IMG/VR virus record: IMGVR_UViG_3300042691_038651
Span: 36,843 to 100,842 of that record
Length of the DNA stretch: 64,000 bases
Reading direction: 5' to 3' (one strand)
DNA from: a virus
Made by a program: the position numbers and the translations under genes. Within the stretch, counting starts at the first letter, position 1. Each line of letters begins with the position of its first letter. This document shows positions 36,045 through 57,378 of this stretch, piece by piece. The notes below the pieces were generated by a model. That model had not been told where the DNA came from. It did not search any database and worked only from the letters and a program-made list of their open reading frames with translations.

Positions 36045-37914
36045 GAAGATTAACGAGGAATTTAAGAAGATGGAGCAGGGTTTGCCTGCTGATACTTCTG
36101 GATTCTTTGAAGGTAACCCGCAATACAAGGCTGCCAACATTGTATTTGAATATACAAAGGAAGAGCTGGCTGACCTGGCTCGCTGTGCAGATGATGTTGT
36201 ATATTTTGCCAACAAGTTTTGTTACTCAATGACGGATGAAGGGGTACAACAAATTACGCTTCGTCCATATCAGGAAGATATGCTGGAAGGGTTTCAGGAC
36301 AATCGATTTGTAGTGATGCTTGCATCTCGTCAGATTGGTAAAACTGTTACATCCTCAATCTTTATTGCATGGTACCTGTGTTTCCACTTTGATCGTAACG
36401 TTATGATTGTAGCGAACAAAATGGCAACAACTACCGAGATTGTTGACAAGGTAAAAACTATCATCAAAAACTTACCGTTCTTTGTAAAACCAGGCTGTAC
36501 ATCGGCTGGAGCCACTGGTATGAGATTTGATAACGGATGCCGACTCTACTCACAAGCAACTACCAAGACAGCTGCGATTGGATTTACCATTCACTTGTTA
36601 TACGCGGATGAGTTTGCACACATTCACCCTAACTTCTTACAGCAATTCTATCGATCAATCTATCCGACGCTGTCATCATCAAAGATTTCACGGATCATCA
36701 TATCTTCGACGCCAAATGGTATGAACCTGTTTTATGAGCTCTACTCAGGCGCGCTTGAGGGCAAAAACTCATATCACCCAATTAGAGTGGACTGGTGGCA
36801 AGTACCTGGCAGAGATGAAAAATGGAAGGCTCAAGAGATTGCCAACCTTGGATCCGAAGAATTGTTCAACCAGGAATATGGTAACCAATTCTTGGCTTCT
36901 TCTCGTCTTTTACTTCCAGGAACGGTGTTGGAATTTTTGCATCGGGTTTCCAAGAAGTACGTATACAAAGATCACGAAGCATTCTACGCAGATCCCGAGC
37001 TTTTCAAAGATATGACCTGGCATCCAGACTTCGATCCCGCCTCTATTGATAAAGGAGAAAAGTTTGTGATTGCTGTAGACATTGGAGATGGCGTGGGACG
37101 GGACTTTAGTATTCTGAATGTATTCCATCTTGAGCCGCAATCCAGAGCAATGATACGCAAGATCAAGGACTGGCGAGATGAGACCGGTTTCTTCCGACTA
37201 AAGCAGGTTGGACTATTTAGGTCTAATGTGGTATCGGTGGAAGACCTATCAAGAGTTTTAGAGGCTTTAATGTTTGAGGTGTTTGACTCAGAGGACGTAA
37301 AGACTGTGATGGAAATTAACTTCAAAGGAAACCTAGTATTTGAGCGAGTGGGGAGAAACAAAAACTTTTTCCCAGAAACTTTTTTACATACCAAGCATAG
37401 CATGAGCGCACCAGTACTTAAGCCAGGTGTAAAAATGCAAAAGGACAACAAAGAGATTTACTGCAGAGAACTGAGAAATTTGGCGATTGCCAAGAAAGTT
37501 CTTATCACGGAAGAGAGAACTGTAATTGAGTTGGCATCGTTTGGTATCAACTCAGCGGGTAGCTACTCTTCACAGATAGGAAACGATGACGTGGCAATGT
37601 CATGCGTTAACCTGGTAAGTTATTTTGACACAACCGACTTCTACGATATGGTAGAGGATATGTACGATAGCACTGATGAAGCTGTTAAAAATGAGATACA
37701 GGCAGCCATTGAAAAAGGCGGAGGAGCCGAGGAAATGCCGGAAGGATTCCAACTTCTCAAAGACTTGGATCCAATGATGGCCGACAATATCAGAGATATG
37801 CAAAGACAAATTCAAGGAAGCCGAGTACAACTCAGCAAAAGCGGCGGCGGAAGAACTGGTGCCGGTGGCGGAGGAATGTCCGGTGGATTTGGAGGAAGCT
37901 TTGGTAGATTTTGA
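36016..37914 (+). CDS. 17: Terminase large subunit (T4 gp17 type)
   Basis: Packaging motor ATPase and headful nuclease. Walker A is SRQIGKT at 104-110, Walker B is LLYADEF with Asp198-Glu199, followed by the coupling motif IISSTPNGM. The RNase H-fold nuclease shows Asp in IAVDIGDGVGRDFS near 355, Glu in a central position (VMEINFKGN) and Asp in SQIGNDDVAMS. The 632 residues compare with 610 in T4. The end is a flexible Gly/Ser-rich tail. Confidence 0.95.
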   Translation: MAKGKVWTTKKINEEFKKMEQGLPADTSGFFEGNPQYKAANIVFEYTKEELADLARCADDVVYFANKFCYSMTDEGVQQITLRPYQEDMLEGFQDNRFVVMLASRQIGKTVTSSIFIAWYLCFHFDRNVMIVANKMATTTEIVDKVKTIIKNLPFFVKPGCTSAGATGMRFDNGCRLYSQATTKTAAIGFTIHLLYADEFAHIHPNFLQQFYRSIYPTLSSSKISRIIISSTPNGMNLFYELYSGALEGKNSYHPIRVDWWQVPGRDEKWKAQEIANLGSEELFNQEYGNQFLASSRLLLPGTVLEFLHRVSKKYVYKDHEAFYADPELFKDMTWHPDFDPASIDKGEKFVIAVDIGDGVGRDFSILNVFHLEPQSRAMIRKIKDWRDETGFFRLKQVGLFRSNVVSVEDLSRVLEALMFEVFDSEDVKTVMEINFKGNLVFERVGRNKNFFPETFLHTKHSMSAPVLKPGVKMQKDNKEIYCRELRNLAIAKKVLITEERTVIELASFGINSAGSYSSQIGNDDVAMSCVNLVSYFDTTDFYDMVEDMYDSTDEAVKNEIQAAIEKGGGAEEMPEGFQLLKDLDPMMADNIRDMQRQIQGSRVQLSKSGGGRTGAGGGGMSGGFGGSFGRF

Positions 37915-56306: not shown

Positions 56307-56372
56307 TTGTTAACAACTTTTTGCCGAAAGATTTTTTTCTTTCGGCTTTTTTGTTTATTTTTATACTAACAA
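56307..56372 (+). promoter_or_regulatory. Terminator-promoter cassette, copy 5
   Basis: ATTGTTAACAACTTTTT at 56306-56322, the hairpin 56323-56346 with T tract, then TTTATTTTTATACTAAC at 56353-56369. The 164-base gap 56224-56387 holds nothing else that I recognise apart from a short GGGTGCTGTCTAGATAGT stretch. Confidence 0.7.
56323..56352 (+). terminator. Intrinsic terminator in cassette copy 5
   Basis: Stem GCCGAAAG/CTTTCGGC (56323-56330, 56339-56346), loop ATTTTTTT, T tract after it. Confidence 0.85.
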
Positions 56373-56387
56373 ATTTAATCGTATCGT

Positions 56388-56645
56388 ATGCGTACACATT
56401 CTACAAACACCTACTTTGAAACGCAGGGCGAAGCCATCCGCTACATTGAGGAGGCTATTGCTGCTCGAAAATATGAGATGGCTCCGTCGGACAACTTGCG
56501 ATTTGAACACGTTTCATATGAGACTACTGTTCACTATAACATTCCACTTCAAAGGACGGATGGCAAAAACACCAAACGCTGGTTACACATTCAAATGTAC
56601 CGTATGCATTCTGGAAGATACGAAGCAAACTACTACTTATCATAA
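56388..56645 (+). CDS. Small hypothetical protein
   Basis: An 85-residue protein, first gene behind cassette copy 5 and overlapping the smpB start by one base (TAATG). Aromatic- and histidine-rich (HVSYETTVHYNIPLQR; RWLHIQMYRMHSGR). No family recognised. Confidence 0.55.
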   Translation: MRTHSTNTYFETQGEAIRYIEEAIAARKYEMAPSDNLRFEHVSYETTVHYNIPLQRTDGKNTKRWLHIQMYRMHSGRYEANYYLS

Positions 56646-57085
56646 TGGAAAAGGCTGTCAACATACAATACCGCAAAGCTCGCTACGACTATCACTTCAT
56701 CGAGGAATACATTGCCGGAGCACAGTTAACTGGCAGTGAAGTCAAAAGCATCCGTGACAGCAGAGTTTCTTTAGTAGACAACTTCTGCTATTTTGAAAAA
56801 GGCGAACTCTGGGCCAAGGGAATCAATATCACACCAATTGACCAAAACTATGTTCACGAGCCTCTTCGCCCGCGAAAACTCCTATTACATCGCAAAGAGC
56901 TCAAACGACTGGAAAAGGAACTGGTACAAGGCATTACCATTGTGGTAATAGCAGTCTTTACCACAGCCAAGGGCCGCATCAAATTCAAGATTGCGCTGTG
57001 CCGCGGTAAGAAAGACTACGACAAGCGGGAAACTATTAAGAAGAGAGAGGCCGACCGGGAAATGAAAAATGTTAATAACTTTTAG
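56645..57085 (+). CDS. smpB: SmpB, tmRNA-binding protein
   Basis: SmpB binds tmRNA and brings it to stalled ribosomes for trans-translation. The 146 residues match the family along their length: KARYDYHFIEEYIAGAQLTG, SEVKSIRDSRVSLVDNF, NYVHEPLRPRKLLLHRKELK, and the C-terminal FKIALCRGKKDYDKRETIKK, which includes the tail that enters the mRNA channel. Typical bacterial SmpB has 150-160 residues. The gene sits in an accessory operon behind cassette copy 5. No tmRNA gene is visible in the window, so it would have to work with host tmRNA. Its last codons run into cassette copy 6. Confidence 0.92.
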   Translation: MEKAVNIQYRKARYDYHFIEEYIAGAQLTGSEVKSIRDSRVSLVDNFCYFEKGELWAKGINITPIDQNYVHEPLRPRKLLLHRKELKRLEKELVQGITIVVIAVFTTAKGRIKFKIALCRGKKDYDKRETIKKREADREMKNVNNF

Positions 57086-57131
57086 CCAAAACATTTTTTT
57101 CTTTGAAAACTATTGGTTAATTTTATACTAT
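57070..57131 (+). promoter_or_regulatory. Terminator-promoter cassette, copy 6 (decayed hairpin)
   Basis: TGTTAATAACTTTT at 57070-57083 overlaps the smpB end. The stem is broken (CCAAAACATTTTTTTCTTTG), but GGTTAATTTTATACTATAA is kept at 57115-57133. The promoter part is more conserved than the terminator part. Confidence 0.6.
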
Positions 57132-57147
57132 AATTAAATAATCAAAT

Positions 57148-57378
57148 ATGGCAATATCAACTGCAACATTTCAAACCAATCAAGTAACTCTTCACCTTGC
57201 AAAAACCAAACCATACGCATCTCGATGCTTCGCTGAAGACATGGTCAAATTTGGAGATACTGTACCTTCAATCGAGGTAGAAAAATGGTTCAAGCGTTAC
57301 TTTCCTTCGAACGTCAACCAATACGAGTTTCGCAATTTGGAAGCCAATGTTACTCAAACCGTACACTTCAAAAACTAA
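57148..57378 (+). CDS. Small hypothetical protein
   Basis: A 76-residue protein behind cassette copy 6, basic and mixed in structure (FAEDMVKFGDTVPSIEVEKW). No family recognised. Confidence 0.55.
   Translation: MAISTATFQTNQVTLHLAKTKPYASRCFAEDMVKFGDTVPSIEVEKWFKRYFPSNVNQYEFRNLEANVTQTVHFKN

Follow-up and report, generated by a model that had tools for sequence, protein, structure and literature searches.

We identified a full-length gene for SsrA-binding protein (SmpB) in DNA of a T4-like phage. The favored reading, to which we assign a probability of roughly 0.68, is that it codes for a functional phage SmpB and is an accessory translation gene of a phage most likely infecting Bacteroidota. 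The gene lies in a window of 64,000 nucleotides (the whole stretch of DNA that was analyzed), corresponding to positions 36,843–100,842 of G000, a linear IMG/VR record of 100,842 nt (IMGVR_UViG_3300042691_038651). The ORF (Table 1) matched PF01668 over its whole length (1.3e-45) with 155.3 bits against a cut-off of 27, a score by which the preliminary description of this DNA had proposed that its SmpB assignment be judged. It also matched the NCBIfam equivalogs NF003843 and TIGR00086 (154.8 against a cut-off of 130 and 151.8 against 119.1), as well as PHROG_6791 and solved SmpB chains (E-values down to 1e-35). Pfam, NCBIfam, PHROG and the solved chains agreed with the earlier claim that the ORF is SmpB along its entire length, and the motifs quoted for that claim were found in it. 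We assign the ORF as a real full-length SmpB; for the predicted SmpB fold, the sequence match is decisive.

Genes for portal, terminase, tail sheath, UvsX-like recombinase and SbcC/SbcD, which bear out the earlier statement that this SmpB is phage-encoded, were present in the window together with genes for clamp loader, DnaB-like helicase and topoisomerase II, and we assign its source as a T4-like myovirus. The closest relative, G001 (202 kb), was matched by 100 of the 139 ORFs of G000. In gene order, G000 followed G001 downwards from about position 113 kb to 17 kb; G000 had no counterpart of the other parts of G001, among them a block of large tail genes. G000 is a fragment, roughly half of a ~200-kb genome; G001 is also incomplete, its two ends being cut inside different genes. 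The neighborhood of smpB was the same in G000, G001 and a third record, G181, with genes on both flanks shared in order. We collected 33 records of this T4-like group, G001 included and most of them fragments, by terminase and clamp loader. Only G001 and G181 among them encoded SmpB, so that smpB is accessory and carried by a narrow lineage (G000, G001 and G181).

A tree of host and phage SmpBs, the comparison suggested in the preliminary description, placed the window protein in a phage-only clade beside Bacteroidota. It fell in a clade of 4 phage sequences (support 100/98), inside one of 9 (99/89), itself inside one of 59 sequences, all from phages (99/98), that grouped with Bacteroidota. 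A second tree, to which G181 and 20 bacterial sequences were added, gave the same picture, although the large phage clade was somewhat less well supported. In both trees, the window SmpB grouped with other phage SmpBs and not with any host. Judging solely from the SmpB tree, the host of the phage is most likely a member of Bacteroidota. The tree also contained a contig labelled Bifidobacterium breve (L037), whose SmpB grouped with Acidobacteriota and which is probably mis-binned.

The preliminary description placed smpB in its own operon behind a terminator-promoter cassette. The cassette was indeed present (Table 1), but smpB shares the predicted operon with an ORF of 85 aa, of which it would be the downstream partner in a two-gene unit. 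No family match to the 85-aa ORF was found in Pfam, NCBIfam and PHROG searches, and the pair formed by this ORF and smpB is conserved in G181. Nor is the cassette specific for smpB: the + strand of G000 bears the promoter-like motif 7 times (at about window positions 2159, 27477, 50765, 56361, 57123, 58658 and 61146), and an ORF begins shortly after every copy. Several of these copies follow a terminator-like hairpin.

Table 1. Features of the smpB region, in window coordinates; residue positions follow E. coli SmpB.
Feature	Position	Strand	Remarks
Intrinsic-terminator-like hairpin, GCCGAAAGA-TTTTTT-TCTTTCGGC, then T run	56323..56346	+	Upstream of the two-gene operon
Promoter-like motif, TTTATACTA	56360..56368	+	Upstream of the two-gene operon
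85-aa ORF	56388..56645	+	Stop overlaps smpB start (ATG) by 1 nt
smpB, full-length SsrA-binding protein, 146 aa	56645..57085	+	PF01668, NCBIfam, PHROG and solved-structure matches
Codon 9 (TAC, Tyr), position of E. coli Asn17	56669..56671	+	Alignment of 194 sequences
C-terminal tail, GKKDYDKRETIKKREADREMKNVNNF	57005..57082	+	Residue mapping; residue roles from PMC8363625, PMC4151336
Promoter-like motif, TTTATACTA, next copy after smpB	57122..57130	+	Precedes ORF at 57148; bounds operon

Residues of the window protein were mapped onto what we take to be the sequence of E. coli SmpB. The preliminary description had named loss of the tmRNA-contacting residues as evidence against its assignment, and here the outcome was mixed: L91, L92 and K124 (the last of which is presumably also a tmRNA-side residue) are kept, whereas E31 is replaced by Ile and Asn17 by Tyr. 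Ile at position 31 is common in phages and is also seen in Bacteroidota. The basic tail, with its GKK and DKR motifs (GKKDYDKR), extends to about E. coli residue 157 and retains G132, K134, an aromatic residue at 136, D137-K138-R139, K143 and R145. The numbering fits the residues that PMC8363625 names; the tail residues have been tied to tagging, and L91 and L92 to packing of tmRNA G19 (PMC4151336, PMC8363625). The aromatic residue at position 136 is Tyr, the commonest residue there among the sequences compared, where E. coli has His, and the H136-to-Tyr change has little effect (PMC4151336). Compared with Bacteroidota SmpBs, the central loop of the window protein is ~2 residues shorter. Asn17 was present in all other SmpBs aligned (68/68 phage and 125/125 bacterial sequences), and Tyr occurred in the window protein only (1/194); the SmpBs of G181 and G001 keep Asn. 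This replacement, which speaks against the favored reading, could reflect a weakened or changed function or a sequencing error, as it requires a one-base change; no function of Asn17 was described in the literature searched. The gene is under purifying selection, with a dN/dS of ~0.07 between L003 and L145. Between the window gene and L002, synonymous sites were saturated, pN was 0.22 and divergence was mostly synonymous.

The window contained neither tRNA nor tmRNA according to ARAGORN and Rfam (gathering score), and neither was found in the remaining 37 kb of G000. Searches of the whole 100.8-kb record for tmRNA with RF00023, with the permuted alpha_tmRNA model (RF01849), with a model derived from phage tmRNA 3' ends (R1) and with a custom scan for the tRNA-like domain were also negative; for the permuted beta, cyanobacterial and mitochondrial tmRNA models, coverage was by cmscan only. 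The tmRNA of a relative, G019, served as a positive control and was detected by the Rfam model, the phage model and the scan for the tRNA-like domain. The earlier claim that no tmRNA is visible was upheld by six approaches, although for about half a genome only, and because G000 is such a fragment the absence there says little. Rfam, ARAGORN, the domain scan and the phage model all failed to detect tmRNA in the incomplete G001, and the last of these found none in the 33 records of the T4-like group (mostly fragments, and including G001 and G181). We rejected the absence of tmRNA from G001 and from another record, G003, as real, as both ends of G001 fall within genes and G003 is a fragment; most genes of the latter share 80–95% identity with a part of the G019 genome, and the tmRNA region is missing from it. 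Since none of the 33 group records had tmRNA and only G001 and G181 had smpB, smpB appears accessory and a real absence of tmRNA from the window lineage is somewhat the likelier case.

The T4-like lineage may have gained smpB without tmRNA, its protein acting on host tmRNA, possibly through altered RNA contacts (Asn17 to Tyr). We regard this as a tentative reading whose chances fall a little short of even. The tmRNA served would probably be that of the host: SmpB was found in 118/118 Bacteroidota genomes and tmRNA in 7/8, so that a host partner is normally available. Recruitment of host tmRNA had been one of the roles proposed in the preliminary description. It fits the kept tail, most of the tmRNA contacts and the lack of detected tmRNA in close relatives.

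Another possible reading, to which we give less than even odds, is a variant of the favored one with another origin of the tmRNA: the window gene and a tmRNA in the half of the genome outside G000 would form an ordinary SmpB-tmRNA pair of the phage. Such pairs were common. In a profile-style search, at least 346 SmpB relatives were detected in viral contigs, and 32 of the 48 SmpB phage records searched contained a full-length tmRNA match (27 above the Rfam cut-off and 5 at 38–46 bits). Among SmpB phage records of at least 100 kb, tmRNA was present in 22 of 27, a few near-duplicates being included in these numbers. All 6 finished SmpB phage genomes examined (Lak-A2, Lak-B5 and those of 634, 636, 642 and 735 kb, the last four given as complete in PMC7162821) had tmRNA. 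It scored above the Rfam cut-off in Lak-A2, Lak-B5 and the 636-kb genome, was found through the phage model R1 only and confirmed by a seven-pair acceptor stem in the 634- and 642-kb genomes, and was a weak RF00023 match adjoining a group I intron in the 735-kb genome. Although no more than 1.6 kb separated tmRNA from smpB in 18 of the 32 pairs, the distance was ~95 kb in G019 and G023, which belong to the SmpB subclade of the window protein, and a 100-kb fragment can therefore miss it. In addition, the block of tail genes adjoining tmRNA in G019 is missing from G000. However, G001, the closest relative, has that tail-gene block and no tmRNA was found in it, though G001 is itself incomplete, and the count of 0/33 in the T4-like group also argues against an ordinary pair.

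Several features of the phage tmRNAs were observed in these searches. The 634- and 642-kb genomes were at one point candidates for SmpB without tmRNA, which we rejected when R1 and acceptor pairing revealed divergent tmRNAs (L338, about 292–673, and L339, about 280–659). These were missed by RF00023 and have a T-loop that deviates from TTCRA. In the 735-kb phage (LR756501.1; L342:1660–2232), a group I intron (96 bits) abuts the 3' end of a 21-bit tmRNA match on the same strand, as if it interrupted the T-loop region of the tmRNA. A GOLLD RNA (286 bits) was located ~600 nt downstream of a phage tmRNA and near smpB (L226:2492–2904). Two other SmpB phage records (G005 and G007, the records of L006 and L008) had many short matches to the end of the tmRNA model that resembles tRNA, which suggests that these phages hold large tRNA arrays. 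The frames at the tag position of phage tmRNAs (L221–L250, L108 and L014) were mostly 21–33 codons long, and 10 in Lak phages; they ended in -VNVA, -AVAA, -AIAA and similar sequences (for example, GNVLNKMALVGLVRQDELVNVA and GKTNVWDAINAFGAPVAEVEYAVAA, with resume codons predicted). Host tags in the Bacteroidota genomes checked were 9 aa (GENNYALAA and GNNSYALAA), and 10 aa was the commonest tag length in a 2025 survey (PMC11915505).

We infer that the window smpB is expressed and that its product binds tmRNA. The body of the protein would bind tmRNA and deliver it into ribosomes that have stalled on non-stop or broken mRNA, while the basic tail would sit in the empty mRNA channel. The ribosomes would be freed and translation could go on during infection, and a possible benefit is rescue following mRNA decay or the action of mRNA-cutting defences. 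An opposite role, in which the phage SmpB would be a decoy or inhibitor that obstructs the A site or forms unproductive complexes with host tmRNA, so that phage proteins escape host tagging, appears unlikely. The presence of SmpB without its own tmRNA and the Tyr at position 17 are consistent with such a role, which has a precedent in phage DS6A: its tmRNA, with little beyond the tRNA-like domain, resembles a tmRNA inhibitor, perhaps titrating SmpB (PMC4131195). However, all tail residues required for tagging are kept and smpB is under purifying selection; the titration suggested in the preliminary description, a dominant-negative role, is less likely for the former reason. Moreover, the tags encoded by relatives with a tmRNA end in degron-like sequences, a sign of active tagging. 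Finally, some SmpB entries in phage collections seem to be of bacterial origin, such as matches located at the ends of records, but a host fragment, a misassembly or a decaying host-acquired copy is a very improbable origin of the window gene, as its flanking gene order is shared with the phage records G001 and G181, its protein clusters with phages, its ORF is intact and has diverged from L002 mostly at synonymous sites, and host contamination was rejected by synteny and the tree.

The view in the preliminary description that SmpB was not known as a phage gene does not hold: Al-Shayeb et al. described SmpB alongside tmRNA in huge phages in 2020 (PMC7162821), and the viral relatives counted above point the same way. 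Phage SmpB itself is already known, and the window protein adds a member. Like it, the SmpBs of huge and Lak phages are phage-encoded and full-length (42.9–43.3% identity over 97–100% of the window protein for Lak), but their genomes are 540–735 kb and carry tmRNA, whereas the window phage is T4-like, probably ~200 kb, and no tmRNA was found in it. Bacteroidota SmpBs, the nearest bacterial branch, share up to 51% identity, the length class and the tail with the window protein, which differs in having Tyr for Asn17 and in its phage operon; the bacterial genomes also carry their own tmRNA. Phages with tmRNA, such as the mycobacteriophage Bxz1 group, Bacillus phage G and the marine phage Melnitz (PMC4131195, PMC9004378), likewise assume part of trans-translation; these reports concern the RNA, whereas in the window phage the protein was found without the RNA. 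The SPB domain of CoCoNuT restriction systems has a similar SmpB-like OB fold (PMC11090510), but it is shortened, fused to a helicase and devoid of one tmRNA-contacting helix, in contrast to the free, full-length SmpB described here.

What may be new is an smpB lineage without tmRNA and, separately, the long tags of phage tmRNAs. If true, the SmpB-only lineage would offer a natural test of whether the supply of SmpB limits rescue during infection, and of whether a phage copes better with mRNA decay or mRNA-cutting defences through rescue. More notable, as a by-product of this analysis, are the widespread SmpB-tmRNA pairs of phages, whose tags are long (21–33 aa). Phage tmRNAs are often overlooked because ARAGORN at default settings misses most of them (2 of 34 were reported), and in large phages ribosome rescue appears to be a regular, if often overlooked, module.
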